Virus record (IMG/VR): IMGVR_UViG_3300018892_000011
Span: 1 to 27,565 of that record
DNA: 27,565 nt
Source: a virus
Strand: one strand, 5' to 3'
Notes under the pieces: generated by a model
What the model was told of the DNA's origin: nothing
Databases searched by the model: none
The model's input: the letters and a program-made list of their open reading frames with translations, nothing else
Made by a program: the position numbers and the translations under genes
Part shown: piece after piece, positions 5,266 through 22,096 of the stretch
Numbering within the stretch: position 1 is the stretch's first letter
Layout: each line of letters begins with the position of its first letter

Positions 5266-5322
5266 TTAAATTAGATTAGCTTGAAAGTCCACTGCACGGT
5301 AGTCCGAAATAAAATAGTACAT
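5266..5322 (-). CDS. 18-residue leader-only peptide, likely remnant of the leader family
   Basis: The ATG at 5322 opens MYYFISDYRAVDFQANLI and then TAA. The first seven residues are the family leader (compare MHYFISDF and MYYLSDF elsewhere), but the basic GSKDK patch and hydrophobic tail are missing. The stop codon is immediately followed by the ATG of the next gene. It is either a decayed family member or a short upstream frame that couples translation. Confidence 0.4.
   Translation of the reverse strand: MYYFISDYRAVDFQANLI
5301..5317 (+). repeat. dispersed repeat copy, forward
   Basis: AGTCCGAAATAAAATAG; on the minus strand this encodes the FISD of the 18-residue leader-only peptide. Confidence 0.65.
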
Positions 5323-5326
5323 TTGT

Positions 5327-6031
5327 TTATAATCCCCTTCTTGGTTTTAAACCAAGTTTCTTATTAAAATTTTTAGCACTTAAATAACCAGCCGTTCCTG
5401 CAAGACCAGCTCCAATTATCATACTTTTAGCTATAGGATTTTTAATTTTAGTTCCCATATTATCTAAATCATTACCTACCAGCATTCCTCCTGTTAAACC
5501 TAATAAACTAGTTGCACCTCCGATACTAATAGGATTTAAACCAGCATAAGTTTTTCGTTTGCGTTTGTCTTTACTTCCTAGTTTCCTGGCAAATAATACC
5601 AAGTTAGTAAGACTTGAACTAAAATTTATTTTCTTAGATTTCTGTCGCCTTATTTTGCTACCTTTACTTCTTTGAATTCCCCTTTGAACACTGTTAAATA
5701 ATCTACCAGCTTTTACTTGTTTGTAACCTCCTTGTACTAAATTATCTATTTCAGATGTTGTTTTATTATTTAATTTTTTAGTAGTTACTCTAGGATATTG
5801 TTTAACACTTAATCTAATTGGTTTAGGTTTAGATACAGGAACACCAATTGATGAAGTAGGTAAAGTTGGTTTCTTTTTATTTCTTAAAGCTAAATAAGCT
5901 CCTCCTCCTAATATTGCGGTTGTACCTAATGCTGCTATTCCTATTCCTAACTTGGATTTACGTTTAATTTTATCTTTAGATCCTTGCTTTCTAGCAAACT
6001 TAGTATCAAAGTCCGAAATAAAATAATGCAT
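5327..6031 (-). CDS. leader-bearing basic Gly-rich protein with two FARK-GSKDK units (putative internal head protein)
   Basis: The N-terminus MHYFISDFDTKFARKQGSKD is the family leader plus AT-hook-like patch (residues 1-25). It is followed by a Gly/Ala hydrophobic segment (about 29-50), a basic Pro/Lys-rich linker and then a second unit: VLFARKLGSKDKRKRK (about 145-160) with another Gly-rich hydrophobic stretch (165-185) and a third near 200-218. It looks like two family members fused head to tail, the second lacking the FISD leader. If the Phe-Ala junctions (F12-A13, F147-A148) are head-protease sites, it would be processed to two DNA-binding, membrane-active peptides. The function is inferred from the family pattern only. 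The gene lies 4 bp from the adaptor candidate. Confidence 0.7.
   Translation of the reverse strand: MHYFISDFDTKFARKQGSKDKIKRKSKLGIGIAALGTTAILGGGAYLALRNKKKPTLPTSSIGVPVSKPKPIRLSVKQYPRVTTKKLNNKTTSEIDNLVQGGYKQVKAGRLFNSVQRGIQRSKGSKIRRQKSKKINFSSSLTNLVLFARKLGSKDKRKRKTYAGLNPISIGGATSLLGLTGGMLVGNDLDNMGTKIKNPIAKSMIIGAGLAGTAGYLSAKNFNKKLGLKPRRGL
6010..6026 (+). repeat. dispersed repeat copy, forward
   Basis: AGTCCGAAATAAAATAA overlaps the start region of the 234-residue protein, where the minus strand encodes YFISDF. Confidence 0.65.
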
Positions 6032-6035
6032 TTAT

Positions 6036-6704
6036 TTAATCATTTTTATCTAAACTGTTTTCTTCGCCGCCAATTACTCTTAGATTAGGGTCAGTAAGTT
6101 GTGAATCGTAGTTATGATAATAATCGGCATTAGCTCCTAAAGCAACACCACGATTAAATCTAGGATCAATAGTAAAATCAGTGACTTCTTTGCTACGAAC
6201 ACTTTGTCTAACTATTGTTTCATTATTTACCAACACTTTAGTTTGAGCCACACTAACTGGTATTTCACCCATCAACTCAACACGTTTAGGTGGCATCATA
6301 CCTGGACTAACAGGTTGTGTTATTACTCCAGGTATTTGAAAATTAAGCCCCGCAGTAAGCATACCTAATAACATATAAGCGTGATTCTTTAGTCCTTGAG
6401 TCACATCAGTTGGCATAGTAGATGTATTGTCCCAATAACTAAAACTAACTAAATCACTTACTATTAATGCTTCTACTATTTCAGTAATAATAATGTGAGT
6501 ATTACGTAATGGTAAGACATAAAGATTACTTAAAATAATATCTACAAAAGCTTCTTTTTCATTAGCAATATCTTGTATTAGTAATGCCGATACTGGAGTA
6601 GTGGGATTATTAATTGGATAAGGTGTATTGGTAGTAAGCCCCGCAATAAGAGATAATCGTCCTCTTACTTTTTCAGCTAATTGTTCTATTGTTGTGTATT
6701 TCAT
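6036..6704 (-). CDS. head-tail adaptor-like protein (DUF1320/gp36-like pattern)
   Basis: The N-terminal 110 residues are helical, with an opening YTTIEQLAEKVRGRLS, an IQDIANEKEAFVDIILSNLY segment and LPLRNTHIIITEIVEALIVSDL. This order (short helix, a helix carrying an acidic/aromatic pattern, then a hydrophobic helical bundle) resembles the DUF1320/Mu gp36 class of head-tail connectors. The C-terminal half (110-222) is extended and ends in a very acidic tail. It sits between leader-bearing proteins and upstream of the tail-terminator candidate, consistent with neck assembly. The assignment is a pattern match by eye. Confidence 0.5.
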   Translation of the reverse strand: MKYTTIEQLAEKVRGRLSLIAGLTTNTPYPINNPTTPVSALLIQDIANEKEAFVDIILSNLYVLPLRNTHIIITEIVEALIVSDLVSFSYWDNTSTMPTDVTQGLKNHAYMLLGMLTAGLNFQIPGVITQPVSPGMMPPKRVELMGEIPVSVAQTKVLVNNETIVRQSVRSKEVTDFTIDPRFNRGVALGANADYYHNYDSQLTDPNLRVIGGEENSLDKND

Positions 6705-6710
6705 GTTTTT

Positions 6711-6724
6711 CTTATTTTCGGACT
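6711..6724 (-). repeat. dispersed repeat copy, reverse, just after a stop codon
   Basis: CTTATTTTCGGACT lies 1 base downstream of the TAA that ends the 142-residue gene on the minus strand. The copy at 10881-10897 has the same placement relative to its gene. Confidence 0.7.
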
Positions 6725-6725
6725 C

Positions 6726-7154
6726 TTACAATATTCCGTATCTTTTGCTCAATGAAATATATCCCCTCAGCTCTTGGGATGTTCTATTGCCTGTGCTAAC
6801 AATACGTCTTCCTTCTTGTAACTGCTCACCATTAGCAGTAGCACCCGCAGTAGCACCCAAAGCAGCTCCACCTAACACAATAGCTTTACGGTGTTTTTTC
6901 AGCATGGCTAATCTACTTGCTGCTTTTAAATCTCCTAATGCACCTGCCGCAGCACCTACACCAGCTTTTTTAGCTAAATACATTCCGGCTATACCAACAC
7001 CTGCTGTGGCTAAAGCTCCTCCTCCAGCAGCACCAACACCTGCTCCCACTAATCTACCTATAGTTGATCTATCTTTTCGTTTAGTTTTGTCTTTACTACC
7101 TTTTCTTCTAGCAAAACTAGCAGTTTGAATGTCCGAAATAAATAGTGTTTGCAT
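6726..7154 (-). CDS. leader-bearing basic Gly/Ala-rich protein (putative internal head protein)
   Basis: Residues 1-27 are a textbook family leader: MQTLFISDIQTASFARRKGS followed by KDKTKRK. Then come two Gly/Ala-rich hydrophobic helices (about 35-60 and 91-108, AIVLGGAALGATAGATA) separated by a basic amphipathic stretch. The C-terminus is soluble. The putative processing junction is F14-A15. Nothing enzymatic is seen. The proposal is a packaged DNA-binding protein that can insert in membranes, based on composition and family context. It lies between the adaptor-like gene and the HNH gene with a 1 bp gap to the latter. Confidence 0.7.
   Translation of the reverse strand: MQTLFISDIQTASFARRKGSKDKTKRKDRSTIGRLVGAGVGAAGGGALATAGVGIAGMYLAKKAGVGAAAGALGDLKAASRLAMLKKHRKAIVLGGAALGATAGATANGEQLQEGRRIVSTGNRTSQELRGYISLSKRYGIL
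7131..7145 (+). repeat. dispersed repeat copy, forward
   Basis: GTCCGAAATAAATAG; the minus strand encodes LFISD of the 142-residue protein. Confidence 0.6.
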
Positions 7155-7155
7155 A

Positions 7156-7491
7156 TTATATTTGATTACTGATACTAAAATTATATTCTTTTAGTTGTAC
7201 TAAGAGTTTTTCGCTAATTAAATCTGTTTCTGTTTTACTACCTTGTTTCAAATTACAAGTCTTACAACATACAGTTAGATTATTTATATTAGTAGCTAAA
7301 CAAAACGCTTTGTATTTATCTAGTGTTTTACAGCTAACTATATGTGAACAGTGTGCTGTGGAAATATCTAAATTAGTTAAACACTTAGGACAAAGGTATT
7401 TACTTTCTCGCAGTAGTACTGTAATTACACTTAAATATTCACTTTTATTGCGTTTCCATTTCTCGAATAACTTACGACTAGTAATTTGCAT
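7156..7491 (-). CDS. HNH endonuclease-like zinc protein
   Basis: A 111-residue protein with CPKC at residues 34-37, AHCSHIV (46-52), NINNLTVCCKTCN (68-80) and K-Q-G after it. Two Cys pairs plus His-Asn spacing match the HNH/McrA-type fold, where the second His-containing strand, the Asn and the terminal CxxC create a metal site. The N-terminus (SRKLFEKWKRNKSEY) is basic. Phage HNH genes of this size are usually homing endonucleases or packaging-associated nucleases. Here the gene sits inside the structural block and overlaps the next gene by 14 bp, so it is read as a free-standing homing-type nuclease. The target is unknown. Confidence 0.7.
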   Translation of the reverse strand: MQITSRKLFEKWKRNKSEYLSVITVLLRESKYLCPKCLTNLDISTAHCSHIVSCKTLDKYKAFCLATNINNLTVCCKTCNLKQGSKTETDLISEKLLVQLKEYNFSISNQI

Positions 7492-7861: not shown

Positions 7862-7889
7862 AATAAAAAGGAGCCAATTTAGCCCCTTA
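7862..7889 (-). terminator. rho-independent terminator
   Basis: On the minus strand AAGGGGC and GCTCCTT pair (one G-U) around a 7-base loop, followed by TTTATTATGG. It lies 19 bp after the stop of the Pro/Glu-rich gene and touches the start of the 127-residue gene. Confidence 0.65.
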
Positions 7890-7907
7890 ATTAATGTTTA
7901 TCTGTTT

Positions 7908-8872: not shown

Positions 8873-9343
8873 CTACACAGCCTTATAAGCTTGGAATTCA
8901 AAGAAGCTTAACCAATCCCCAAAAGATTGCGTAATTTCTAGTTTAATTTTTCTAACTTCGATAGGAGAAAACTGAATTTTTTGAGTAGGTATAACACTAG
9001 GATTTATACCTGATCCAGAAAAAATTTGAGTATTATAATTTACCCCATCTACAGAGGGTAACAACCTAAAACCTCTAGCCCAATGATTTCCGCTCCATTG
9101 AATTTCTATTTGTGCAATAGAAATCAAAGCATTGAAATTAAATTCAACCCACATTCCTACATATTGATTTGTCTGAGATAAATAGCGACTGCCAGTATCT
9201 GAGTCTATTGATGCTTGAGCTTTAATAAATGAGTCTGAGCTTTCATTAGAAGCTGTTGCAGTCCAGCCATTTCTATTTAAAAGAGTGTAGGTATATGTAA
9301 CAGAAAATAAAGGGGTTCCACAAACAATAAGCCCTAAACTCAT
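8873..9343 (-). CDS. F5/8 type C (discoidin-like) adhesin with tail-docking N-terminus
   Basis: Residues about 18-156 fit the F5/8 type C fold: TATASNESSDSF near the start, ASIDSDTGSRYLS, then WVEFNFNALISIAQIEIQW, SVDGVNYNTQIFSG and the closing KIQFSPIEVRKIKLEI with a terminal aromatic FFEFQAY. Such domains bind glycans or lipids. The N-terminal peptide MSLGLIVCGTPLF parallels the CBM-like neighbour. The ATG overlaps the TGA of the tail protein upstream (ATGA), indicating translational coupling. Role inferred: receptor-binding accessory of the tail tip or fibre. Confidence 0.7.
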   Translation of the reverse strand: MSLGLIVCGTPLFSVTYTYTLLNRNGWTATASNESSDSFIKAQASIDSDTGSRYLSQTNQYVGMWVEFNFNALISIAQIEIQWSGNHWARGFRLLPSVDGVNYNTQIFSGSGINPSVIPTQKIQFSPIEVRKIKLEITQSFGDWLSFFEFQAYKAV

Positions 9344-10830
9344 TTTGTAATGCTCCGAACACGCAAAGTGACAGCCGTAATTGATACTGAACTAATAAAT
9401 CTAAAGGCATTTGTCAACCCAAAAGCTCCAGATACTTTGGCTAACGAGTCTGCTTCAATTAGTTTCCAGTTACTCGCATCTGCTAGTAACGCCACACTGG
9501 TATTCGCCCAATTTGTTCCATCAAAGCTAACTTGTAAAGTTAATGTTGGTGCGCCAGTTATTGGTGGACAAAAAATAATTGCTAATCTGTTATCAATAGT
9601 AAAAGTGTTAGATGTAGTACCTGCCGGAAAGGTTATTGTTGCACTAACTAAATTACGCGACTGGTCTACATTTTGGGGTATACCCGAAGTATGTCCTTGT
9701 ACTGTGATAACGTTATTGTTTGGAGTACCTGCTACACCTTGGAAATAGCTAGTAAGTTTTGTTAAAAGTCGTTTAAATAACGATATATAACCTGTATCGG
9801 CAGTATCACTAATAGCTTGTACATCATTCCTAGCGCCAAACGCTACGGCAAATATACCATCTGTTGCCAAAGTTACAGGCAGACTATTTGCAACTACGTT
9901 ACTTCCTAGATTGGGTGGTAATCTATTTTTAATGTTATTTGAGGTAGTCTCAGTCGCAGCTCCTGTTGGTAACGGTAGACTACTAGCAGTTACTGGTTGA
10001 GTAACTCCACTGCCATCAACAATTAATCTACCACCGCTACTAAGTTCACTAGGTAGCTTGCCAACAAGGTTTAATAACGTAGTTTCAGTAGCTGCATTAG
10101 TTGGCAATGGTATTGAGGGCAATGCTGTGACGCTAACACTTTGATTATTAGGAAAGTTACTAACTGTTACACTGCCGATACTATTGTTTCCAGCTGGTAA
10201 ACTAGGTAAACTAACTAAACTTACGGGTTGTGTGTTTGGAAAATTGCTAACAGTTACTGACCCACTTACTGGTTGCGTTACTCCACTACCATCTATCGAC
10301 AATCTCCCCCCAGACAAATTGGTTGGTAATTTAGTAAGTAAATTACTTAAAGTCGTTTCTGTTGCAGCTCCGGTGGGTAAAGGTAAACTACTTGCACTAA
10401 CTGGTTGTGTAGTAGGAAAATTTCCAATATTTACAGTACCATTTACAGTCTGGTTTTCTGGTAAATTAGTGATACTGATATTGCCAGAAACAGCTTGGGT
10501 ACTTGGGAAGTTGCCAATATTAACTGTGCCATTAACAGGTTGTGTTGTGGGTAAATTACTAACACTAACAACACCAACTACTGCTTGTGTTTCTGGAAAA
10601 TTATTTACACTTACATTACCAGATATTGTTTGATTACTAGGAAAGTTACTAACACTAACACTATCCCCAACAATTCCACCGTCGCCACCAGAACTATTAC
10701 TATTTAAATGAATTAATATACTTAAAGCTAATTCTTCAAAAGGTATTTTGTCAAAGTCTGTGTATCTATTAACGCCATAAAAAGTATTTAAATTATCAAT
10801 AACATCTTGTTTACTGGGTAGACTAGCCAT
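9340..10830 (-). CDS. repeat-rich tail/fibre protein
   Basis: A 496-residue protein in three parts. Residues 1-50 are helical and acidic (a possible virion-anchoring domain). About 57-310 is a series of short units of the type VSNFPxxQxVxGxV/xIGNFPxTQ, interleaved with two to three copies of a longer unit (LPLPTGAATETTL... LxxGGRLxxDGSGVTQPV). About 311-496 is a beta-rich tail containing TLTLQVSFDGTNWANTSVAL and ending LRVRSITK. NFP-Q-V-G repeats of this kind are seen in phage structural proteins and form extended beta structure. The gene is followed by two adhesins, the first overlapping by 4 bp, so I infer a fibre or tail-tip protein to which they dock. Confidence 0.7.
   Translation of the reverse strand: MASLPSKQDVIDNLNTFYGVNRYTDFDKIPFEELALSILIHLNSNSSGGDGGIVGDSVSVSNFPSNQTISGNVSVNNFPETQAVVGVVSVSNLPTTQPVNGTVNIGNFPSTQAVSGNISITNLPENQTVNGTVNIGNFPTTQPVSASSLPLPTGAATETTLSNLLTKLPTNLSGGRLSIDGSGVTQPVSGSVTVSNFPNTQPVSLVSLPSLPAGNNSIGSVTVSNFPNNQSVSVTALPSIPLPTNAATETTLLNLVGKLPSELSSGGRLIVDGSGVTQPVTASSLPLPTGAATETTSNNIKNRLPPNLGSNVVANSLPVTLATDGIFAVAFGARNDVQAISDTADTGYISLFKRLLTKLTSYFQGVAGTPNNNVITVQGHTSGIPQNVDQSRNLVSATITFPAGTTSNTFTIDNRLAIIFCPPITGAPTLTLQVSFDGTNWANTSVALLADASNWKLIEADSLAKVSGAFGLTNAFRFISSVSITAVTLRVRSITK
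9901..10662 (-). repeat. coding repeat array (NFP-Q units) in the tail protein
   Basis: About ten short units of 14-17 residues with conserved Asn-[FL]-Pro and Gln-[PAS]-Val, mixed with longer TGAATETT / DGSGVTQPV units. At DNA level the copies are diverged, so this is an old protein repeat rather than a recent tandem duplication. Confidence 0.75.
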
Positions 10831-10880
10831 AAATATTAGTATTGTATAGTTAATTTTATTTTAAACGATAAACACCTAAA

Positions 10881-10897
10881 CCCTATTATTTCGGACT
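10881..10897 (-). repeat. dispersed repeat copy, reverse, just after a stop codon
   Basis: CCCTATTATTTCGGACT lies 1 base past the TAA of the 113-residue gene; intergenic. Confidence 0.7.
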
Positions 10898-10898
10898 C

Positions 10899-11240
10899 TT
10901 ACCATAAATCCCGCAAAGAGTGATATGCGGGTTGTAATGGATTATCTGTAGCTCGACTACCATCTTTTAATTTAATACCTTTGTGTCTAGCATGATAGTT
11001 ATCTCGACGTTTGTCGTTTTTATTTTTTCTAAAATCAGAATAACCTTTAGCACCGTATGCTACTGTTTTTGTTCGTCCAGTACTTGTGTTGCGTACAGTT
11101 ACTTGTTTTTTCTTACCTTTTTGTGTAGCTGATTTTGGTCTACTTATTTCAAAGGTTTGTCCTTTGTATTTTACTCGTTTGTTTTTACTTCCTAGTTTTC
11201 TACTAAATGTAATGCAGTCCGAAATAAATAGTGTGGTCAT
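10899..11240 (-). CDS. leader-bearing basic protein with prohead-core-like C-terminal domain
   Basis: Residues 1-21 are the family leader (MTTLFISDCITFSRKLGSKN). The rest differs from its Gly/Ala-rich cousins: KKQVTVRNTSTGRTKTVAYG (about 45-64), then DKRRDNYHARHKGI (about 76-89) and a C-terminus AYHSLRDLW. The layout of a strand pair ending in [FY]G, an R-R-x-x-[FY]-x-A-R-H segment and a terminal Trp resembles small domains found with T4-like prohead core or protease genes of other phages. I recognise the pattern but not a name. The processing junction would be F12-S13. It overlaps the ADP-ribosyltransferase-like gene by 4 bp, so the two are co-translated. Confidence 0.65.
   Translation of the reverse strand: MTTLFISDCITFSRKLGSKNKRVKYKGQTFEISRPKSATQKGKKKQVTVRNTSTGRTKTVAYGAKGYSDFRKNKNDKRRDNYHARHKGIKLKDGSRATDNPLQPAYHSLRDLW
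11216..11232 (+). repeat. dispersed repeat copy, forward
   Basis: AGTCCGAAATAAATAGT; the minus strand encodes LFISD of the 113-residue protein. Confidence 0.6.
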
Positions 11241-12244
11241 TTCTTTTTCTTTTTACGTGAATAACCTTTTACTTTCTTCCCACGTCTAAAAAAGTCTTTT
11301 ACTTTAATTTCCCCAATACTATTGTCAATAGCACGTTTAGCTAAAATACCCGTACCTAAGCCACCAAGACCTGTTATTGCTGCTCCTGCTAATACTCGTT
11401 TAGGATTACCTTTCATCAGTTTTAGTAAACCTTCTTTTTTAATTGCTGCTGCTGTGGCTTTTAAACGATTACCATACACTTTTACTTTTTCTTCAGAATA
11501 CATTGCTCTAGGATCGTCAAAGTCAGGTTTAAAGTTTTTATTAAAAAACTCGTCACTACCACCAATATATAAACTGCGACCTGTTGTGGGTAGTTGTCCT
11601 TTTAATACGGCTTTACTACGCTCACCTGCAAGTCTTTCTTGATTACCTTTTAATATATTTGTGTACTCATCAGCTAATTGCTGATTAGGTAACGATTTTC
11701 CAAAAGGTGTTTGAAAAGTTTGTTTATCTAATTCTTGAAACCTTTTAGAATCTTTATTAACAAAATCCCAATCAATAGTGCTTTGACCTCTATAACCTCT
11801 ACGTTGGTCTGCTCGGTTAATAACTTGCTGAAGCGGGTTTTCTTTTTTGGCATCAACAGTAACAGTACCAAATCCCATAGGAGATGGCATTTCACGGGCA
11901 ATAGCATTTTTGTGAATACCAGTTATGTATACTTTATTTTTTGCCTTATTAATATCAGTCCCCACACCTGCGGCATTAGATTCTAAAGCACGTATAGCTC
12001 CGCTACCACTTTTATTTGGATCTAAAATACCACCATTTTTAAGTATTTCTTTAGCAGTCTTTTTACTAGTACTATGAGACTCTAAACGTACACCTAACAA
12101 ACGAGGTATCCCTGATCTTATTGTTTTTTGTCCTAAGTAAGCTGCACCAATACCGCTAGTTATAGCTACTCTGTTGTTTTTCTTTTTTTCTTTAGTCTTA
12201 AAATTAGCTATTTTATTGTTTTGAATATTAGAAATAAAATACAT
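11237..12244 (-). CDS. ADP-ribosyltransferase-like leader-bearing virion protein
   Basis: A 335-residue basic protein. The N-terminus MYFISNIQNNKIANFKTKEK is a diverged leader with a basic patch. Residues 53-75 read RLESHSTSKKTAKEILKNGG, matching the H-[GS]-T-S...A...IL..G pattern that opens many ADP-ribosyltransferase folds; KVYITG (104-109) fits the second conserved Tyr strand. I cannot point to the catalytic Glu with confidence. A Gly-rich hydrophobic segment lies near 283-305, and the C-terminus (VKDFFRRGKKVKGYSRKKKK) carries the RKGKxVKGY motif shared with the proteins at 20490 and 22093. By analogy with T4 Alt, a packaged transferase is possible. The alternative is a structural protein with chance similarity. 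Confidence 0.5.
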   Translation of the reverse strand: MYFISNIQNNKIANFKTKEKKKNNRVAITSGIGAAYLGQKTIRSGIPRLLGVRLESHSTSKKTAKEILKNGGILDPNKSGSGAIRALESNAAGVGTDINKAKNKVYITGIHKNAIAREMPSPMGFGTVTVDAKKENPLQQVINRADQRRGYRGQSTIDWDFVNKDSKRFQELDKQTFQTPFGKSLPNQQLADEYTNILKGNQERLAGERSKAVLKGQLPTTGRSLYIGGSDEFFNKNFKPDFDDPRAMYSEEKVKVYGNRLKATAAAIKKEGLLKLMKGNPKRVLAGAAITGLGGLGTGILAKRAIDNSIGEIKVKDFFRRGKKVKGYSRKKKKK

Positions 12245-12370: not shown

Positions 12371-12681
12371 ATGCCAGATTATACTTGCAACAGAAACAAC
12401 AACACTATTTATTATTCAGGCAGAATATGTCAAGAAGGAATAATGTATTTAAAACAGTGTCTAGATAATTTAGACACTGAAAAGAAAAGTACATTTTATA
12501 TTACTTCGGGTGGTGGCGAAGTTTATGTAGGTTTATTTTTATATGATTTAATTGCACAACAAGATCCAGCACTTTTTTCTATTGTTGTGTGTGGATTTTG
12601 TCGATTGGTTGGGAAAATAAAGAAGTTTATATTAACGCTACACAAGCTTTAGAGTTAGGTATTGTTAAGGAAATTATTTAG
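12371..12681 (+). pseudogene. ClpP-like protease remnant with internal deletion and frameshift
   Basis: The first 75 residues follow ClpP: IYYSGRI, a helix LKQCLDNLD, FYITSGGGEVYVGLFLYDLIA and FSIVVCGF. Then the frame runs into unrelated residues and TAG at 12652. The ClpP ending resumes in another frame: WENKEVYINATQALELGIVK with a stop at 12679-12681. About 60 residues are missing between the two parts, including the segment that follows the oxyanion region and the catalytic Ser and His, so it cannot be an active protease. The next gene starts at the base after the second stop, as if the original gene had been tightly coupled to it. A good ribosome-binding site remains. Confidence 0.75.
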
Positions 12682-13198: not shown

Positions 13199-13498
13199 TT
13201 ATTTGCCTAATGAGGTAGTATACTTATTCCCATTTTTCATTTCTTGTCTAGTTTTTAATCCAACTAATCCACCTACACCTAATCCCCCAATTGCAGCTGC
13301 TAGCTTGTATTTTGCGGGTACACGCTTTAGTTTATTAATATCCTTATCCATTAAACCAATCATTGTTGGAGTAGCAGCTACTAATCCTCCAGTAATTAAG
13401 CCTGCTTTTAATGGATTTTTTAAAGTTCTTTTCTTTTTATCTTTAGAACCCTTTTTTCTAGCAAAATTAGCAGTGTTAAAGTCAGATAAATAATACAT
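13199..13498 (-). CDS. leader-bearing basic Gly-rich protein (putative internal head protein)
   Basis: I start at ATG 13498 (MYYLSDFNTANFARKKGSKD) because the residues match the family leader; a GTG at 13549 would add 17 residues and lies inside the preceding terminator. After the basic patch (GSKDKKKRTLKNP) come a hydrophobic Gly/Thr-rich segment (about 31-50) and a second one, KLAAAIGGLGVGGLVGLKT (about 64-83). The processing junction is F12-A13. Here the leader is encoded with TCTGAC instead of TCGGAC, showing that the peptide is conserved beyond the DNA repeat. 99 residues, no enzymatic motif. It lies downstream of the GIY-YIG gene, behind that gene's terminator. Confidence 0.7.
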   Translation of the reverse strand: MYYLSDFNTANFARKKGSKDKKKRTLKNPLKAGLITGGLVAATPTMIGLMDKDINKLKRVPAKYKLAAAIGGLGVGGLVGLKTRQEMKNGNKYTTSLGK

Positions 13499-14763: not shown

Positions 14764-15921
14764 TTATGCTTTGACTTGTCTAGAAAACAGCTTCTTTGGA
14801 TCTCCCACAAAAGGTACGCCAGTCATAATTGCAGTAGTACAATCAATCGGAGGCTCTTTGTTTACTTCCCTTGTAGACACATAAACACCGGATTTAGGAT
14901 TCAGGTCCAATGCTCCGTTTGCCGATTCCAAAGTTGGTCCCACTGCCCTAACTCCAGCATTTTCTACCAAGAAACAGTAGCGATTATCATTCAAAAACCG
15001 CCCCTTAGTAATCTGCTTATTAACATTCTCAATCTGATATAGTTCATCAAAGGTTTTAATCTCTGGTAACTCTCTAGCGCTAAGAATGTTCTTCAACATA
15101 TCTGGAGACACCGTACCCACCTGAGTACTAGCCATCATCTGCCTTGCAGCTTCCTTGGTAGTCTTTTGATTCAGTAAATCATTACGCGCTCTACGGCTCA
15201 TTACAATGAGGTCAGGGGGATTACCATTAGTATCTATAAAGGTATCTACATCCAAGAACAATCGCTGTAGTCCGTTAGCATACTCATAATCACTCCAAAC
15301 ATTATCTTGGGGATTAGCATTAGCTCCTGTTTGTACTAATGTTTCAGGAAAATGATTGTAATCAGCTTGTGGGTCTACAAAGTTAATTACAGTAGTAGTC
15401 TCTGTTCGAGTATCTGTAAAATTAACAGTACCAGTCTGTAATAACTGCCATGTCATTACATTTAAGGTATCCATACACGATTTAACTAGTTGCTCAATAC
15501 TTCCCCAAAGGTAATTAGCTAAATCGTTGTTAGTACCTTTAACAACACTACCGTCAGACATCTTTTGGTCTTGTACTGTAACAGCTGCTCCCTTAGCAAA
15601 CATCATACTGTCACGCATATCCCACTGAGTAGGCTCGTCGTAAACCCTACTCAATGCAATCTTGACCATCTGAATAGTCAGTTTCTGAATTGCATTATGT
15701 CGTGTGAGGGGAATATTAGACCCATAAGCAACGACACTTGCAATAGTGTTAATCTGCTCTACAACATAAGCCAAGAAGTTTCTAGAATCGTATTGCTTGA
15801 TAGGCATATACGGGTCAAGAATACCTGACCGTTGTTTAAGAGTCGTGAGTGTTGACTCAATAATCCAGTCAGCTTCTTTAGCTTGTTGTTTATCATTTAG
15901 CCAATTGGCAATGTATCCCAT
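14764..15921 (-). CDS. major capsid protein, lambda gpE-like family
   Basis: 385 residues, a normal length for the gpE-type capsid family. Family-like elements: GTVNFTD and INFVDPQADYNHFPETL (about 164-196), then W(S)DYEYANGLQRLFLDVDTFI, PDLIVMSRRARNDLL (about 238-252), YCFLVENAGVRAVGP near 320 and a VSTREVNKEPPIDCTTAI C-terminal strand where gpE-like proteins typically end. It follows protease, scaffold and decoration-like genes, which is the lambda order, and is followed by a strong terminator. The last ten residues KKLFSRQVKA resemble the FS-R junction of the leader family, so the tail could be trimmed by the same protease; this is speculative. Forms the capsid shell. Confidence 0.85.
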   Translation of the reverse strand: MGYIANWLNDKQQAKEADWIIESTLTTLKQRSGILDPYMPIKQYDSRNFLAYVVEQINTIASVVAYGSNIPLTRHNAIQKLTIQMVKIALSRVYDEPTQWDMRDSMMFAKGAAVTVQDQKMSDGSVVKGTNNDLANYLWGSIEQLVKSCMDTLNVMTWQLLQTGTVNFTDTRTETTTVINFVDPQADYNHFPETLVQTGANANPQDNVWSDYEYANGLQRLFLDVDTFIDTNGNPPDLIVMSRRARNDLLNQKTTKEAARQMMASTQVGTVSPDMLKNILSARELPEIKTFDELYQIENVNKQITKGRFLNDNRYCFLVENAGVRAVGPTLESANGALDLNPKSGVYVSTREVNKEPPIDCTTAIMTGVPFVGDPKKLFSRQVKA

Positions 15922-15955: not shown

Positions 15956-16792
15956 TTAAAAACGTGAACGGAACAACATCTTGGGGAATCTATCCTTAAT
16001 CTCATCATCAAGATAAGGTAATGCACTTTGATACACACCAATTGCTCCAGTCAAGCCATTAATGTGTTTAGACAGCGTGGTAGAGAAATCGTGAGAATGT
16101 ACATTCAAACCAAGGATATCCTCTACAGGGCTTCCTACATGGCTACCAACAGGTAATACATACCCAGCATTACCAGTCAAAGTAACCTCTTTGGTAGTTG
16201 GATTAATTGACTGAATAGTGCCCAACTCAGATGCAGGTGTAGTCAATTTGCTGTCACTAGCAGATGCAGTTGCCGTACCAGTAACAGTTAGTGGATATTC
16301 ACTCTTGTTTTTAGAGAACAAATACAACTTATTGTTAGTGGTATCTGGAACTGCCCGGACTTGGCTATTAAGTAATGCTTGTGCTGCTAGATTAATCAAA
16401 TCAGAAATAGACGTTGTGGTAGCAGTAACTGTAGTGGCACGACCATTAACTGTGATAATTAATGTTTGTCCTACACTAACGCCTGTAACACTCACACTTG
16501 CGTAAGGTTCAATCACATACAACTTATCGCCCGGAACAAAAGGAGCAATAATGTTGAGTCTGAGTGTGTTTGAATTAGTGTCTGTAGCTTGAGTTGTGGT
16601 CGCACGAGGTAAAAAACATAGTTCAGCGCTACCCTTACGACGAGCAATCCACATACCCGCAGGTACATTTTTACGTCCGTCTAGGTCTGGAGAAATAAAA
16701 GTAGCATTTACAGTTGCACTCACTGGGGCTTCTTGCATATCTGCAAAAGCAATGATTTGTGGGTCACTGTTGTATCTAACACGGTTTAACAT
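15956..16792 (-). CDS. candidate head decoration protein
   Basis: 278 residues, Thr/Val/Ser-rich and beta-like. LDGRKNVPAGMWIARRKG (about 37-54) resembles the GRKxVPAGTxVA block of phage head decoration/stabilisation proteins. A central TVNGRATTVTATTTSISDLI region (about 114-133) and a C-terminal helix-rich part (NVHSHDFSTTLSKHINGLTG) follow. Its place immediately upstream of the major capsid gene, 34 bp apart, is where lambda gpD sits. It is more than twice the size of gpD, so extra domains are present. Capsid exterior location is inferred. Confidence 0.6.
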   Translation of the reverse strand: MLNRVRYNSDPQIIAFADMQEAPVSATVNATFISPDLDGRKNVPAGMWIARRKGSAELCFLPRATTTQATDTNSNTLRLNIIAPFVPGDKLYVIEPYASVSVTGVSVGQTLIITVNGRATTVTATTTSISDLINLAAQALLNSQVRAVPDTTNNKLYLFSKNKSEYPLTVTGTATASASDSKLTTPASELGTIQSINPTTKEVTLTGNAGYVLPVGSHVGSPVEDILGLNVHSHDFSTTLSKHINGLTGAIGVYQSALPYLDDEIKDRFPKMLFRSRF

Positions 16793-16807: not shown

Positions 16808-17767
16808 TTAAATTAAGTTGTGACTACGGGCTTTACGTAACTCAAAATTACGTTTTGCTTGTGCTTCAATTTCAGCGTCTTCGTCGGTGACTTCTGTGGC
16901 AGTACCAGTCGAATAAGACTGAAACATTGCTAATTTGTTGAGTCCACTTTTCTCGAACAATTCAATGGTTTTTTGCATTGCATAAAGTTCTTCTGCAACA
17001 CCTACACCATTAAGATCTGCTGTACGAGAAAATGCAGCAACACGATCGCTCTCAAGCTGAAAATCGCCAAACAATACTTTGACTGCACTCGGAGGCATTA
17101 CTTGTTTGGCTTTTAGTTCTAGTTCATTTAAAGCATCACGAATTTGTTGGTTTTGCTCAAATTCAGCAATACGGTTATTTAGTTCCGTAACTTGAGAATA
17201 TTCGGCGTCTTCCTCGTCTTCATCTTCATCACTGTCTTCGTAATCTTCTAGAGTTTCACCACGAGCTTCCATAGCTGCCAAACGAAGATCTGTAGTATAT
17301 TCTTCGTCAAGCTCAAAGCAACGAGCTAGGTAAATGGCTAAATTATCGTCCGGTTCGCTGTCCCCAGTAATTAGTCCTGCAATGTCTTCAGGGTCATTTT
17401 CTGTGAGTTCGGCTATGTCATACACCAATGACTCTATATCGTCGTAACCTGCTTGTTCGCCTAATTCAATTAATGCAGCCCCAAAACGATTACCAATACT
17501 AAAATTAGCCACACCTTCATCACCTTGCGAATATTCTGAGTCGCCGTATATTGCTTGTAGTTCTTCTTCATCAATATTTTCGGACTCTAACAAACGGTTA
17601 TTAAGGTCAATAATTGCTTGTGCTTTATGAGCTTTAGCTGTTGCTTCATCCATAACTCCAGCTTCAACAGCATTGTCAAGATTCTCAATTAACTCTTCGT
17701 AAAGTCCCATGTGATACTGAATATCAGTAATCTCTTCAGTATTTTCTAGTTGTCGTAAACCTGCCAT
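16808..17767 (-). CDS. acidic scaffold candidate with an embedded HTH-like domain
   Basis: A 319-residue very acidic protein in the scaffold position between protease and decoration/capsid genes. Residues 1-70 and about 180-220 are helical and coiled-coil-like, with an Asp/Glu run near 177-189. Residues about 95-153 resemble a Cro/CI-type helix-turn-helix: an ALIELGEQAGYDDIESLVYD helix pair, IAELTENDPEDIAGLITG, then LAIYLARCFEL. An HTH in a scaffold protein is unusual. Putative protease junctions occur at VANFS (86-90) and VAAFS (243-247), as expected if the scaffold is degraded during maturation. A dispersed repeat copy is read as LESENI. Scaffold role inferred from position, acidity and helicity. 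Confidence 0.6.
   Translation of the reverse strand: MAGLRQLENTEEITDIQYHMGLYEELIENLDNAVEAGVMDEATAKAHKAQAIIDLNNRLLESENIDEEELQAIYGDSEYSQGDEGVANFSIGNRFGAALIELGEQAGYDDIESLVYDIAELTENDPEDIAGLITGDSEPDDNLAIYLARCFELDEEYTTDLRLAAMEARGETLEDYEDSDEDEDEEDAEYSQVTELNNRIAEFEQNQQIRDALNELELKAKQVMPPSAVKVLFGDFQLESDRVAAFSRTADLNGVGVAEELYAMQKTIELFEKSGLNKLAMFQSYSTGTATEVTDEDAEIEAQAKRNFELRKARSHNLI
17574..17586 (-). repeat. dispersed repeat copy, reverse (AAAA variant)
   Basis: ATATTTTCGGACT inside the scaffold gene; the minus strand reads it as E-S-E-N-I, a different frame from the FISD copies. Confidence 0.6.
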
Positions 17768-17780: not shown

Positions 17781-18068
17781 TTATATTGCTTTTATCTTTT
17801 TAGGTTTGGGTATTTTGGGTGTCTTAGGTTTAGTGGATTTAAGCTTTTTAGCTATACTCATACCAGCTCCTATTGCTGCTCCTGCTGCTGCAGCATTACG
17901 TTGAAAACCACTATTACTATGTTTAGCTAGTAGCCCTACTAATGCACCCGTACCACCTCCAGAAATAGCCCCACTAGTTGCAGCACTTCCTAACCCAACT
18001 AGTTTCTTTTTGCGGGGTTTGGTAATACCTAAAGTTGATGTGGCAAAAGTAGCTTCACTTAGTAACAT
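17781..18068 (-). CDS. small basic Gly/Ala-rich protein (putative internal head protein)
   Basis: 95 residues. The N-terminus MLLSEATFATSTLGITKPRK has a shortened leader with a Phe-Ala junction at 8-9 and a KPRKKK patch, a variant of the family arrangement. Gly/Ala-rich hydrophobic segments follow (about 26-47 and 59-72) and the C-terminus is a run of Lys-Pro (KPKTPKIPKPKKIKAI). Between the scaffold gene (13 bp) and a second family-like protein (3 bp). DNA binding through the basic tail and membrane insertion are plausible but unproved. Confidence 0.6.
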   Translation of the reverse strand: MLLSEATFATSTLGITKPRKKKLVGLGSAATSGAISGGGTGALVGLLAKHSNSGFQRNAAAAGAAIGAGMSIAKKLKSTKPKTPKIPKPKKIKAI

Positions 18069-18071
18069 TAG

Positions 18072-18662
18072 TTATTTCCTTTTTTTACGGCTACGTAATG
18101 CGGCAGCACCAGCTCCACCTACAGCAGCAGCAGCTAATAAACCAGCTCCAAGTTTGCCACCTTTAGTACTTAATCCACCTTTGGCAGCATTACCTAAACG
18201 GTTTAGTGGTTCACGTAGCTTACCTGCATTAGTTCCACCTGCTCCTGTTGGAGTTTGTAAACCGGACTTAGCCGCACCTCCGGCTCTTTTTAATGAGTCA
18301 AGTAAACGTCCACCAGCTTTACCCACTTGTCTGGGCATATTTTTTAAAGCTGACACATCTTGATTTAATCTGTTTTTACCAACAAATGCTCCTACATCAC
18401 GAGCAGATTTGGCAGCTTCTTTACGACCTACACCACCTTTTCTTAATCCACCATAAACTTTAGCAGCAGCACCTCCACCATATCTAGCTCCAGCAGCACC
18501 TAAAGCACCCGCTCCGGCTAAACCAGCAGCAATGCCCCCTTTACTCATTCTTTTCTTTTTATCTTTGCTACCTTTTTTACGAGCAAAGTTAGCCAGATGA
18601 GAATAACCATTAAGGTTTTCTAAATCCGACATACTAAATGCTGCAACAACTGACTTTGACAT
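18072..18662 (-). CDS. basic Gly/Ala-rich protein with leader and FARKKGSKDK patch (putative internal head protein)
   Basis: 196 residues. The leader is longer here: VVAAFSMSDLENLNGYSHLA followed by NFARKKGSKDKKKR (residues 25-38). The VVAAFSM segment matches VLAAFTL in the protease's C-terminal region and VAAFSRT in the scaffold, so it is a second possible processing site. The body is rich in Gly, Ala, Arg and Lys, with hydrophobic stretches (about 42-58 and 172-189) and a basic end RSRKKRK. It lies 24 bp downstream of the protease, whose C-terminus has the same composition. Confidence 0.65.
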   Translation of the reverse strand: MSKSVVAAFSMSDLENLNGYSHLANFARKKGSKDKKKRMSKGGIAAGLAGAGALGAAGARYGGGAAAKVYGGLRKGGVGRKEAAKSARDVGAFVGKNRLNQDVSALKNMPRQVGKAGGRLLDSLKRAGGAAKSGLQTPTGAGGTNAGKLREPLNRLGNAAKGGLSTKGGKLGAGLLAAAAVGGAGAAALRSRKKRK

Positions 18663-18686: not shown

Positions 18687-19937
18687 TTAAAATTTGGGTT
18701 TTTTGGGTTTACGTAGTTTATTTACTCCCATGGCTGTTCCTCCTACTGCGGCTACACCTAAACCACCAGCAGCAATTTTCCCACCTGTGGTACCATAAGC
18801 CGCTTTAGCCGCACCACCAATACCAGCTAGATTAGATTTCAGTCTACCTTTTCCTGACAGAGAGGCTTTGGCTTTGGAAATACCAAAACCTAATTTAGAC
18901 ATATTTTTAGTTTTGCTGGCTTCAGTAGCTACTTTTTTAGCAACACCTCCTAAAGCTGTCCGTGCTGTTTTAAATGCACTACCAATACCAAACTCAGCTA
19001 ACTTCTCCATTTCATCTAGAGTAAAAGCTGCTAATACTTGGGAGCTTTCGTATTGTGCTGTACTACCACGTTGAGAAAGTGTTCTAGGCATACCCGCACT
19101 TTGTTGAGCTTTTATATCTTCTTGAACTGGAGTGGTAGGTTGTTGCTCCGATTCTTCGTCTTCAGGTTGTACACCTAATACTTCTAACAGTCGAGTTTCA
19201 AAATCATCTAATGCTTTTTCCATTAATTGACTTTGATCTTGACCATTTAGTGCTTCGTCAGTTGCAGTAAGAATACTTGCCAAAACCAACCACAAATCCT
19301 CAGTAAGTTCGTCGTATTGCTGTTTTACTTGATCTACTTGATCGTCACTATTTTCTAGTTCGTCAAACGATAAAGCAAATGTAGCTAACCCAGTATCATG
19401 ACCTTTAAATAGTCTTAGACCAACAATTGCCGGAGTACTAGTAGCACTAATTTCTCTAATACAGTCCGAAACAATATCTATACCAGGACTAATAGTTGAT
19501 AGTAGCTTATCTCTGTACTGTTCTATGGCTTGCCGGGATTTAATTGTTATTTGATTAGCAAAAGCACCAAATTTTCCTACTAAATGATTGTATCTAGAAT
19601 CTCCAATATCTTCTGGTGTAATTACACGAGTTTCGATAGAGCCATCTAAATCACCATAAGTTTTGTCTTGAGCTTTAATATGATCAGCTAAAAAAGGTAC
19701 TCGTGTACCCATTTGTAGTAAGCGATTTGTATTGTCTGCTATTTTTTGAATTCGATCTGCTGAGAAAATATGCTTACGTTGTTTACTGTCAATATGTTCG
19801 CCTTCGACTAATATCAACGCACTAGTCTGAATATGTCCATCTGCTTCCTTAAATTCGGCAGATAATGGTTGTGCCTCAAAATGTGTGACTGGCACTGTAT
19901 TATTAATATTTCTTTTTTTACTTGTGCGTGTAGTCAT
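18687..19937 (-). CDS. head maturation protease (Mu-I/S78-like) with Gly/Ala-rich C-terminal extension
   Basis: Residues about 20-180 follow the Mu-I/S78-like prohead protease plan: HIQTSALILVEGEH, VPFLADHIKA (His86 candidate), GDLDG, LLSTISPGIDI (Ser147 or Ser150 candidate) and REISATSTPAIVG, where such proteins usually read SLT-x-PA. Then an acidic helical linker (about 190-290) and a C-terminal region 300-416 that begins VLAAFTLDEMEKLAEFG and turns basic and Gly/Ala-rich, ending NKLRKPKKPKF. That region looks like an internal-head-protein domain attached to the protease. Processing sites LATFALS (184-190) and VLAAFT (301-306) could separate the three parts. Gene order (protease, scaffold, decoration, capsid) supports the call. 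A dispersed repeat variant lies at 19463. Confidence 0.75.
   Translation of the reverse strand: MTTRTSKKRNINNTVPVTHFEAQPLSAEFKEADGHIQTSALILVEGEHIDSKQRKHIFSADRIQKIADNTNRLLQMGTRVPFLADHIKAQDKTYGDLDGSIETRVITPEDIGDSRYNHLVGKFGAFANQITIKSRQAIEQYRDKLLSTISPGIDIVSDCIREISATSTPAIVGLRLFKGHDTGLATFALSFDELENSDDQVDQVKQQYDELTEDLWLVLASILTATDEALNGQDQSQLMEKALDDFETRLLEVLGVQPEDEESEQQPTTPVQEDIKAQQSAGMPRTLSQRGSTAQYESSQVLAAFTLDEMEKLAEFGIGSAFKTARTALGGVAKKVATEASKTKNMSKLGFGISKAKASLSGKGRLKSNLAGIGGAAKAAYGTTGGKIAAGGLGVAAVGGTAMGVNKLRKPKKPKF
19463..19476 (+). repeat. dispersed repeat variant, forward
   Basis: AGTCCGAAACAATA, one substitution from consensus, inside the protease gene where the minus strand encodes IVSDC. Confidence 0.5.
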
Positions 19938-20010
19938 AATTTAATTCACTATATATCCTAAATACTAAACACAGATATATTAAAATAAGGATACTTAATT
20001 ACTTGCTGCA

Positions 20011-20256: not shown

Positions 20257-20484
20257 TGCTTAATGTTATAAATGGAGATTTATTAGACATAACAAAAGGC
20301 TTAATTGCACATCAAGTTAATTTAAAAGGTGTAATGGGAGATGGTTTAGCAAAACAAATTAAAGATAAATACCCTAATGTTTATAGCCAATATGTTTTAG
20401 GAGTCCGAAAATAATAGTCTTAAGTTGGGTGTCACCCAAATAGTGCAAATAACAAATACAACAATAGCTAAATACATACACTAA
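20256..20484 (+). pseudogene. macro-domain protein remnant, frameshifted at a dispersed repeat
   Basis: The ATG at 20256 opens LNVINGDLLDITKGLIAHQV then GVMGDGLAKQIKDKYPNVYSQY, a clear ADP-ribose-binding macro-domain N-terminus. The frame stops at 20412-20414 within the repeat. One base over, the domain continues: ESENNSLKLGVTQIVQITNT to the stop at 20482-20484, matching the next macro-domain strand. So there is one extra base near 20400. The remaining half of the domain (about 75 residues) is missing, because the convergent gene ends 5 bp further. It is a decayed gene; the macro domain could once have reversed or read ADP-ribosylation. Confidence 0.75.
20402..20417 (+). repeat. dispersed repeat copy, forward, at the macro-domain frameshift
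   Basis: AGTCCGAAAATAATAG (AAAA variant). The macro-domain reading frame breaks immediately beside it. Confidence 0.7.
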
Positions 20485-20489
20485 TTTTA

Positions 20490-21698
20490 TTATTTGGATT
20501 TGCGGTTTGCATCTACTTTATCTTTTACAGCTTTTTTACTATTGTTATAAATATTTTGTGCATTAACTAGTTTCTTTTTGGCAGATTTTAATGCTGCTTC
20601 TTTTTTGTCTTCTGGGATATTGGTGTTACTAGCTGCCTTATCGTATTTAGCTTTGATTTCTTTTAGATTCTTACCACTTTGCTTTATTTGCTGTATTTCA
20701 TTTGCTAAAGGTTTTTCACTATTTACAGTTACTGTGGGTTTAGGTTTTACTGTAATTAGTTTAGGTGCTACGTAATCTTTAGGAATAACAAAATCTTTAA
20801 CTAATTTATTACTTTCGTCATTGGATAAGTAGTGGTAAGCTCCGTGGTCAGACATATATCTATCCACAAATTTACCGGGTTTCTTTTTATTATTTTTATT
20901 AATAATTACAGCACCTGGAAACTTAAATGGTCCTGCTTGCCAATCGTTTTTATCTAGTATGTGTAGCGAATTTTTAGCTGGTGGTAAAATACCATGGCTA
21001 TTTGCCCCATAAGTTACTTGTTTTAATTTGTTAGTGTCTACACCCATTTGTTTTAGGATATGCATAGCTTCATTAGTTACGTATCCCCCAGAACTGTGTC
21101 CATGCAAAGTTTGTATTTTATCAGGATACATATCCATATTGGCTTTGACAGTTGCCGCTAATTCTCTAGCTGTTGGATTATAGCCTTTTAAAATGCCTTT
21201 TTTAGCCGCAGTTGTTGTTAAGTCAAATAGTTGTCTAGCACTATTTCCAGGTGGAGTATCTGGAAGGTCATTCATACTTCGAGTATCAACAGCTATAGTA
21301 TGTCCCTTTACTTTACTGTGAATGTATTTAGAAAGCTGACTACTACTTTTTGCTTCTGCACCATAATTAAGCCCAGCAACCGCATAATTTATATTCGGAC
21401 GATTAAGCTCTGCTGTAGATAATTGAGCAGGTTTTATTTTTTTAGATAATTCTAAAGCTTCTTTGGCAGATATTTTTATATTTAAGTTATATCTTGCCTT
21501 TAAAATCCCGTAAGTACCTAATCCTAAACCAAGTAAGGCTGCACTACCTATACCTGCAACTTGGGCATTGCTAATTAATTTCTTATCTTTTCCTTTACGA
21601 ATATGTGCTTTAACAACCTTTCCTTTGCGTATACTTGATTTAACTTTTATTTCTCTCGCGAAATTGGTGTTTATATCTGAAATAAATAATGTTTTCAT
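20490..21698 (-). CDS. leader-bearing alpha/beta-hydrolase-like (lipase/esterase) virion protein
   Basis: 402 residues. The leader MKTLFISDINTNFAREIKVK (junction F13-A14) runs into SSIRKGKVVKAHIRKGKDKK (21-40). A Gly/Ala/Leu hydrophobic segment at about 46-65 could cross a membrane. Then a hydrolase-like domain, about 100-310: TIAVDTRSM, and LHGHSSGGYVT at 198-208, which is a classic G-x-S-x-G nucleophile elbow (Ser202). HILDKNDW (about 246-253) and SDHGAYHY (283-290) offer acid and His candidates in the right order. The C-terminus (about 330-402) is a Lys-rich coiled coil. It overlaps the 133-residue gene by 4 bp. Possible role: an ejected lipase/esterase. The triad is inferred. Confidence 0.65.
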   Translation of the reverse strand: MKTLFISDINTNFAREIKVKSSIRKGKVVKAHIRKGKDKKLISNAQVAGIGSAALLGLGLGTYGILKARYNLNIKISAKEALELSKKIKPAQLSTAELNRPNINYAVAGLNYGAEAKSSSQLSKYIHSKVKGHTIAVDTRSMNDLPDTPPGNSARQLFDLTTTAAKKGILKGYNPTARELAATVKANMDMYPDKIQTLHGHSSGGYVTNEAMHILKQMGVDTNKLKQVTYGANSHGILPPAKNSLHILDKNDWQAGPFKFPGAVIINKNNKKKPGKFVDRYMSDHGAYHYLSNDESNKLVKDFVIPKDYVAPKLITVKPKPTVTVNSEKPLANEIQQIKQSGKNLKEIKAKYDKAASNTNIPEDKKEAALKSAKKKLVNAQNIYNNSKKAVKDKVDANRKSK

Positions 21699-22096
21699 TC
21701 TGTTTTTTTCTTATCTAAATGCTTAGATATTAAGTTGTATGCTCCGTAACCTGCCCCAGATAATACTGCACTAGTTAATGCACTTTTTCCCGCTCTACCG
21801 CTTAACTTCTTGATGTAAATTTGTTTTAATTTGGCTTTACTTGGATAAATTATATTTGCGTGAGGATTTCCTGACTTAATAGCTTTTTTAAAATTATCTT
21901 CATTATTAGCTAAGACTAAATTAAATCCTTTTCTCATTTTTAAATGTGCAACCAAAGCACCTCTAGTTCCACCTGCAACTGCACTACCCGCCAACACTGA
22001 ACTTAACCCGATTCTTTTTTTACGAGGGGTTTTGTCTTTGCTTCCTTTAGGTCTGGAAAATAATATATCTATGTCCGAAATAAACAGTGTTTTCAT
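21695..22096 (-). CDS. leader-bearing basic protein with AT-hook-like patch (putative internal head protein)
   Basis: 133 residues. Leader MKTLFISDIDILFSRPKGSK then DKTPRKKR (to residue 28). RPKGSKDK with flanking Arg/Lys is the best AT-hook-like match of the family. A short Gly/Ala-rich hydrophobic segment (about 31-50) follows, then a soluble mixed region and a second hydrophobic stretch (SALTSAVLSGAGYGAYNLI, about 106-124). The processing junction is F13-S14. It overlaps both neighbours by 4 bp (ATGA), so it is translated in one polycistron with the two-unit protein and the hydrolase. Confidence 0.7.
   Translation of the reverse strand: MKTLFISDIDILFSRPKGSKDKTPRKKRIGLSSVLAGSAVAGGTRGALVAHLKMRKGFNLVLANNEDNFKKAIKSGNPHANIIYPSKAKLKQIYIKKLSGRAGKSALTSAVLSGAGYGAYNLISKHLDKKKTE
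22073..22084 (+). repeat. dispersed repeat copy, forward
   Basis: GTCCGAAATAAA; the minus strand encodes LFISD of the 133-residue protein. Confidence 0.55.

Follow-up and report, generated by a model that had tools for sequence, protein, structure and literature searches.

What are the proteins, encoded by a set of minus-strand genes in one viral genome, that carry different payloads behind the same short N-terminal peptide? The question was raised by the window, an IMG/VR record from an uncultured virus, 27,565 bases long, which was analysed together with its relatives. In the window this leader is 8-26 residues long, usually has the form [YF]-[IL]-S-D-x(n)-F, and ends at F, the next residue being A, S or K. 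We propose, with a probability of roughly 0.6, that the family consists of capsid cargo (internal head) proteins of the phage T4 kind, predicted to be packaged and trimmed by a head protease of a different, A-x-F specificity. The proposal draws on the common leader and tail, the coupling of the tail to Phe, the enrichment of a motif in head genes, charge and gene neighbourhood. In uncultured phages related to cyanobacterial phages, one short tag thus precedes some ten different proteins, most of them strongly basic.

Genomes compared

Two further IMG/VR contigs, 127,110 and 53,403 bases long, have near-identical head genes (100% identity in the capsid protein, 97% in the protease). The former (127 kb, 177 open reading frames, ORFs) served as sister contig. 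Relatives were a 111,188-base contig (111 kb, L018, 182 ORFs), with a protease 68% identical to that of the window, and an 8.8-kb fragment (L019, protease 37% identical). The cultured phages Pam2 (187 ORFs) and PA-SR01 (165 ORFs) were used for comparison. Among cultured phages, these two Pseudanabaena phages are closest to the window in the capsid protein (31% identical), so the host is probably a cyanobacterium. No near-identical DNA to the window was matched among phage records.

Shared leader and basic tail

The members found in the window are given below in order of transcription. A slash marks the predicted cut.

21695..22096, minus strand: predicted cargo gene, MKTLFISDIDILF/SRPKGSKDK; leader 22058-22096
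20490..21698, minus strand: predicted cargo gene, MKTLFISDINTNF/AREIK; leader 21660-21698; payload resembling alpha/beta-hydrolases (lipases), its GHSSGG fitting the nucleophile elbow G-x-S-x-G
18072..18662, minus strand: predicted cargo gene with two-site N-terminus, VVAAF/SMSDLENLNGYSHLANF/ARKKGSKDK; leader 18585-18662
17781..18068, minus strand: diverged member, MLLSEATF/AT; leader 18045-18068
13199..13498, minus strand: predicted cargo gene, MYYLSDFNTANF/ARKKGSKDK; leader 13463-13498
11237..12244, minus strand: diverged predicted cargo gene, MYFISNIQNNKIANF/KTKEKKK; leader 12200-12244
10899..11240, minus strand: predicted cargo gene with DUF5754 payload, MTTLFISDCITF/SRKLGSKNK; leader 11205-11240
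6726..7154, minus strand: predicted cargo gene, Gly/Ala-rich, MQTLFISDIQTASF/ARRKGSKDK; leader 7113-7154
5327..6031, minus strand: predicted cargo gene, MHYFISDFDTKF/ARKQGSKDK; leader 5996-6031; second internal module VLF/ARKLGSKDK, F codon 5591-5593
5266..5322, minus strand: leader-only ORF of 18 codons, MYYFISDYRAVDFQANLI

A relaxed leader pattern, M-x(0-4)-[YFL]-x-[IL]-S-[DNE]…F-[ASKQ], was composed after inspection of the leaders. It starts 10 of the 177 ORFs of the 127-kb contig (500 N-terminus shuffles: mean 0.04, maximum 1) and 7 of the 182 ORFs of the 111-kb relative (500 shuffles: mean 0.05, maximum 1). Past residue 45 it was found at three places and one place, respectively. Chance does not explain such numbers, and the common N-terminus is real. 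An alternative pattern, which also catches chance matches, added members in the 111-kb relative and, in L019, one or two candidates. Two more family members lie in the sister contig right beyond the right end of the window.

The tail is coupled to Phe. The ORFs of the 127-kb contig hold 10 copies of GS[KR][DN]K and those of the 111-kb relative hold 7, and all 17 are preceded by F-[ASG]-R-[KRP]-x. Some copies are internal to proteins, as in 5327-6031 of the window and in further proteins of both large contigs, and tail modules without a leader at the start thus exist too. The ortholog of 21695-22096 (L018 8012-8416, 62% identity) reads INF/ARKKGSKDK. In the hydrolase gene 20490-21698 and its ortholog, MKTLFISD and F/ARE are identical and the spacer differs in sequence and length. 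The L018 ortholog of 17781-18068 (MLLSEFTAPK) lacks an A-x-F site.

Coordinates and peptides given in a preliminary description of this locus were correct, and the leader-only remnant it listed at 5266-5322 is present in the sister contig also. Its formula for the start, M-x-x-[LY]-F-I-S-D, is literal in 6726-7154, 10899-11240, 20490-21698 and 21695-22096 and does not fit the other members: 5327-6031 begins MHYFISD, 13199-13498 MYYLSD, 11237-12244 MYFISN and 17781-18068 MLLSEATF, and 18072-18662 has no FISD start and reads MSKSVVAAFSMSDLENLNGYSHLANF/ARKKGSKDK.

The A-x-F motif and the head protease

A blind scan of residue pairs showed A-x-F to be about twofold enriched in head-block genes, with 17 copies in the window (7.8 expected), 27 in Pam2 (12.8) and 26 in PA-SR01 (11.1). 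Outside the head block no enrichment was seen, either in Pam2 (120 vs 121) or on the 127-kb contig (52 vs 55). The pair ranked second in both Pam2 and PA-SR01. A refined motif, A[NESTQMA]F[ASTGQ], was counted 11 times in head-block genes of the window (10 proteins, 1.2 expected), 14 times in Pam2 (8 proteins, 1.9 expected) and 11 times in PA-SR01 (9 proteins, 1.7 expected); 0/400 shuffles reached the count in each case. Elsewhere in the Pam2 and 127-kb genomes it was found 24 times against 23.1 expected. The refined motif was then applied to 14 further loci, which are not independent (12 are Pam2-like by their sites), and in 11 of the 14 the count was reached by 0/300 shuffles.

Along minus-strand transcription, the head block runs from a MuF-like protein and a basic protein through leader genes 21695 and 20490, the head maturation protease, 18072 and 17781 to an acidic scaffold-like protein, a conserved protein and the major capsid protein; five more leader genes follow, interspersed with other genes. 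The head genes beside the leader genes are:

23699..26986, minus strand: large MuF-like minor head protein; site SLATF/ATQ, absent from the L018 ortholog
22093..23709, minus strand: basic protein, net charge +65, without leader; internal site HLAEF/STK; S(S/A)(I/V)RKGKIVKGY-like motifs
18687..19937, minus strand: head maturation protease (match to phrog_976, E 4e-4); SAEF, LATF, LAAF and LAEF as putative sites of self-cleavage
16808..17767, minus strand: acidic protein, net charge -55, presumptive scaffold/core protein; sites VANF, IAEF, VAAF and LAMF
15956..16792, minus strand: conserved protein of the head block; its gene lies between those for the scaffold-like and capsid proteins
14764..15921, minus strand: major capsid protein, phrog_29 (E 1.7e-15)

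For 23699..26986, MuF-like is a label that we presume from the Cys pattern; no PHROG match and no Pfam match above cut-off were found for this protein.

The protease homologs of Pam2 and L019 also match phrog_976 (E 2.5e-5 and 1.5e-5). By sequence similarity the protein belongs with head proteases such as gp21 and Mu gpI. The window protease gave no direct Pfam match; for the PA-SR01 ortholog an HHpred match to PF10123 (E 4.5e-18) is reported (PMC10286775; statements on published work refer here and below to the available excerpts of the papers). An alignment of the window, Pam2 and PA-SR01 proteases (30% identity) has invariant His and Ser columns, e.g. H86 and S147. A27/F29 and A314/F316, the N-terminal and tail sites, are invariant as well. 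A third site (LATF), behind the presumed catalytic domain, occupies a like place in these proteases, in columns that do not align, and the L019 protease lacks the N-terminal site. In L018 the protease gene (9956-11247) and the 18072 ortholog (near 11300) are each split by a frameshift or stop, either real or an assembly error. The protease tail LAAF/TLDEMEKLAEF and the 18072 start VAAF/SMSDLENL...LANF have a common segment, with similar segments in L018 and L019; it is possibly a second type of targeting peptide.

Both residues of the sites in the scaffold-like protein are kept at 4/4 sites in L018, 3/4 in L019 and 1/4 in Pam2. Across 13 protein groups the values are 9/13, 5/12 and 3/8, and other A-x pairs are kept less often (116/277, 25/170 and 3/71). 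By analogy with the T4 and SPN3US precedents, from which the exact bond and the cutting itself are also drawn, A-x-F is the putative site of the head protease, with Phe at P1. The cut would fall after F, rather than after F-A/S as first described, because Phe is the constant residue. No report of a Phe-specific head protease was found in the open-access literature searched, and absence from print is not claimed.

The same motif could act uncut. A-x-F and the leader would then be docking motifs for the scaffold or the inner face of the capsid, and the proteins would be packaged with their leaders kept. A short motif with variable flanks, repeated many times per protein, is what docking would lead one to expect, and single sites have been gained and lost between relatives. 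The placement of the sites argues the other way: they lie near the protease N-terminus and behind its presumed catalytic domain and are repeated in the scaffold-like protein, like those of T4 gp21 substrates (PMC9026906). We regard docking as unlikely.

Several results weigh against cutting at A-x-F or against the cargo proposal as a whole. The relaxed leader pattern starts 0/187 ORFs in Pam2 and 0/165 in PA-SR01; conservation of the leader in related phages, named as a check in the preliminary description, extends to the 111-kb relative and not to Pam2-like phages. In the blind scan A-x-F ranked only 7 in the window (z 3.1), and 23 (z 2.9) once the five leader genes farther downstream were included. 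The form of the refined motif was picked after looking at the window and Pam2. Its count was reached by 10/300 shuffles in L019, 6/300 in L026 and 24/300 in L030, and control ORFs were raised in 4 of the 14 loci (L021 2/200, L026 10/200, L028 9/200, L031 5/200), perhaps through additional structural genes outside the stretch taken as head. Site Phe was kept no better than other Phe (11/13, 6/12 and 3/8 vs 59/80, 26/42 and 9/17 in L018, L019 and Pam2), so conservation is weaker support than enrichment. The window capsid protein has no site; that of Pam2 has one near its C-terminus. Ala stands at P3 in just 9 of the 17 GSK-type sites, with I, T, V or S in the others, so cargo sites are looser than scaffold sites. 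When single proteins were ranked by A-x-F excess, head genes filled top rows together with tail and other genes; this ranking was not taken as proof.

A dispersed DNA element under the leader

Part of the leader coincides with a DNA element. TATTTCGGAC is present in the window in 10 copies (1559, 1781, 5302, 6011, 7131, 10887, 11217, 22073, 25341 and 27500) against 0.05 expected from shuffles, and in the 111-kb relative in 66 copies. The element reads roughly (C)CTTATTATTT(T)CGGACT. As TATTTT?CGGAC it is found 69 times in either large genome, with copies on both strands, 16 times in the window and 0 times in Pam2. By ORF calls, 32/69 and 28/69 copies in the two large genomes are intergenic, vs about 10-13% intergenic DNA; the others lie inside genes, on either strand. 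With a looser pattern, 15/15 pairs less than 80 bases apart (7 + 8) are inverted, with 15-60 nt between cores, and could form hairpins. An inverted pair at 27452-27509 of the window, a potential long hairpin, is followed by TATTTTTT. Among viral contigs the paired element was found in these two phages only. A host search by paired elements in species genomes gave no host; the 12 stretches it returned came from various bacteria and an archaeon and were judged by a rough estimate to be chance. Candidate functions of the element are operator, promoter, hairpin or recombination site.

Such an element, sitting behind start codons, could by itself make the leaders alike, and the peptide would then be functionless. 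The 69 copies in 127 kb and the excess in the window fit this account. FISD is the in-frame reading of the element in 8/17 leaders, and one copy in the 111-kb relative, read in a different frame (YYFGL), directly precedes an internal LLAEF/ARKKGSKDK. The other 9/17 leaders are without the element and use TCA, TCT, AGT or AGC as the Ser codon of [IL]S[DNE]. The L019 fragment lacks the element and yet has an FFLSNTSNF/ST start. Nor does the element reach F/ARKxGSKDK, the DNA copies of which are 64-79% alike (family D1). Since Ser codons of both families are used across leaders, and the element-free L019 has a leader-like start, the peptide seems to be under selection. The element accounts for the identical DNA of several leaders. 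A leader that is DNA element and nothing else was rejected as the whole explanation, because nine leaders encode the peptide without it; a functionless peptide is quite improbable. The preliminary description had treated FISD as peptide; in the other eight leaders FISD doubles as the DNA element.

A broader version of the cargo proposal is doubtful. In it the head protease of the lineage is specific for Ala-x-Phe, and a modular code for delivery, made up of leader, cut, a basic tail that grips DNA and any payload, would load about a dozen different effectors; new payloads would be recruited by recombination at the dispersed 10-18-nt element, the core of the tag being its in-frame translation.

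Payloads and charge

Leader/tail proteins are 11 of the 16 most basic among the 177 proteins of the 127-kb contig (rank test p 3e-7; 12 were flagged, one of them, at rank 138, probably a chance pattern match). The same test in the 111-kb relative gave p 2e-7. The tail itself adds charge to these values. The ARKKGSKDKKKRK peptide may be a DNA-binding sequence.

The payload of 10899-11240 was assigned to DUF5754 (PF19058, E 2.2e-8, above cut-off), and the protein also matches, with E 3.5e-9, phrog_220, annotated as 'minor head protein and DNA pilot'. The DUF5754 payload matches a segment of gp012 of Aphanizomenon phage CL131, and CL131 ORF012 was detected in virions by liquid chromatography-tandem mass spectrometry (PMC6293099). 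In the available literature excerpts no virion mass spectrometry was found for Pam2 or for PA-SR01 (sodium dodecyl sulfate polyacrylamide gel electrophoresis only). A leader protein of the 111-kb relative carries DUF6496 (E 9e-7). The hydrolase-like protein of 20490-21698 matched Lipase_3 with E 0.02, and its ortholog with E 6e-4 (20.2 bits, just under the cut-off of 22). It resembles the GHSAG(G) domains of CL131 gp048 and gp047 (E 3e-13 and 1e-9 when just three sequences were compared; E 3e-5 across all phage records). PDB-sequence matches to lipases were weak (E 0.3-0.6), and a fold search with a poor model (predicted local distance difference test, pLDDT, 48) gave no match with E below 0.001.

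No family match was obtained for 11237-12244, either as the whole window protein (Pfam, PHROG) or as its core, and the structure model was unusable (pLDDT 37). A T4 Alt-like ADP-ribosyltransferase was considered for this gene from a resemblance of HSTSKKTAKEILKNGG only and set aside, there being no relevant Pfam, PHROG or PDB-sequence match.

Hydrophobic stretches, ascribed to most members in the preliminary description, were found in 6/9 listed genes (Kyte-Doolittle above 1.4 over 19 residues), one or two in each; 10899, 17781 and 21695 have none. Together with the basic tail they are compatible with late intracellular DNA-binding or membrane proteins that never enter the virion and are merely encoded among head genes, and several members do lie farther downstream, where other genes, homing-endonuclease-like ones included, are interspersed. 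The leader ends, however, match the motif of the protease and the scaffold-like protein, and DUF5754 is present in virion minor head proteins. A location outside the virion is clearly unlikely.

Proposed pathway

For the cargo proposal, targeting, cutting, packaging, DNA holding and ejection would proceed as follows. The short N-terminal peptide would target each protein to the prohead, into its acidic scaffold core. The maturation protease encoded in the same head block would cut after the Phe of A-x-F, removing leader and scaffold; in cargo its preference at P3 would be looser, with A, I, T, V or S at that position. The cut would expose the strongly basic tail A/S-R-K-x-G-S-K-D-K-x-K-R as a new N-terminus, which may hold the payload on the packaged DNA. 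Payloads would be modular, among them a lipase-like hydrolase, DUF5754, hydrophobic segments of a glycine-zipper-like kind and, in a relative, DUF6496; they would exit with the DNA, acting at or across the host membrane. Internal head proteins had been suggested before for this family. Position in or below the head block, the protease there, leaders ending on its motif, positive charge, and leader and tail in a relative favour that suggestion; the AT-hook likeness that went with it does not hold strictly.

If the proposal is true, packaged and ejected proteins can be read by a sequence code from genomes of a poorly known phage group, and a head-protease specificity is predicted for the cultured phages Pam2 and PA-SR01. 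There would be a capsid-loading tag outside T4, and lipase-like enzymes may accompany phage DNA.

Neighbouring genes

A GIY-YIG plus AP2-like protein is encoded at 13586-14659, adjoining the capsid gene, and LAGLIDADG-like and weakly HNH-like genes are at 2091-2846 and 7156-7491; these are probable homing endonucleases within the structural region. A short ClpP-like gene (93 amino acids) lies on the opposite strand at 12371-12652, and L018 18854-19357 is a 167-residue ORF with a similar start. An HU-like DNA-binding protein is encoded at 27083-27430 (PF00216, E 2e-12). The protein of 9340-10830 has many SNFPxxQxVxG-like repeats and gave no Pfam match; its DNA is directly repeated at 10140 and 10629. 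In the Pam2 annotation two genes (L005 2064-3905, L007 7601-8398) are labelled botulinum neurotoxin, names that are most likely mistaken.

Comparison with known systems

The tail was compared with AT-hooks, to which the preliminary description had likened it. One AT-hook type, RGRP...GSKNK, has a GSKNK extension (PMC12430185), and GSK[DN]K beside Arg/Lys is alike here; GS[KR][DN]K is in 17/17 tails by construction of the search. The RGRP core is in 0/17 tails and RP in 1/17, which rules out strict AT-hook membership and leaves the likeness to the extension.

CL131 gp047 and gp048, in a structural gene block, have related GHSAG(G) hydrolase domains; neither FISD leader nor GSKDK tail was found in the two sequences compared. 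Within the first 50 kb of CL131 the Cys-rich CKxGxxCGxxCI is present in five copies, carried by gp047/gp048 (L045 41788, 42756, 44583, 45573 and 46575), most of them after an [RL]xDA-like stretch, and is perhaps the equivalent tag of that phage.

DarA of phage P1 is packaged, contacts DNA and loses an N-terminal piece to the prohead protease Pro (PMC12810830). Its propeptide is about 75-90 residues, and no tag family like the one described here was seen for DarA in the excerpts. The prohead proteases gp175 of phiKZ and gp245 of SPN3US have several substrates, the SPN3US site being AXE; packaged proteins of these phages enter the cell (PMC10052503, PMC9026906). Ala at P3 is as predicted here, whereas P1 is Glu there and Phe here.

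The closest parallel in principle is T4, of which the proposed family would be a variant. T4 IPI-III and Alt have an N-terminal capsid targeting sequence that is cut in the prohead by gp21, and the proteins are ejected (PMC9026906). The T4 site is L/I-X-E, as against the A-x-F predicted here, and the present leaders end in Phe, not Glu. The tag sequence differs, a basic GSKDK tail follows the site here, and homology of tag or payload is not part of the comparison. The likeness lies in a short N-terminal peptide common to unrelated payloads, for which targeting, cutting and ejection are predicted as in T4.

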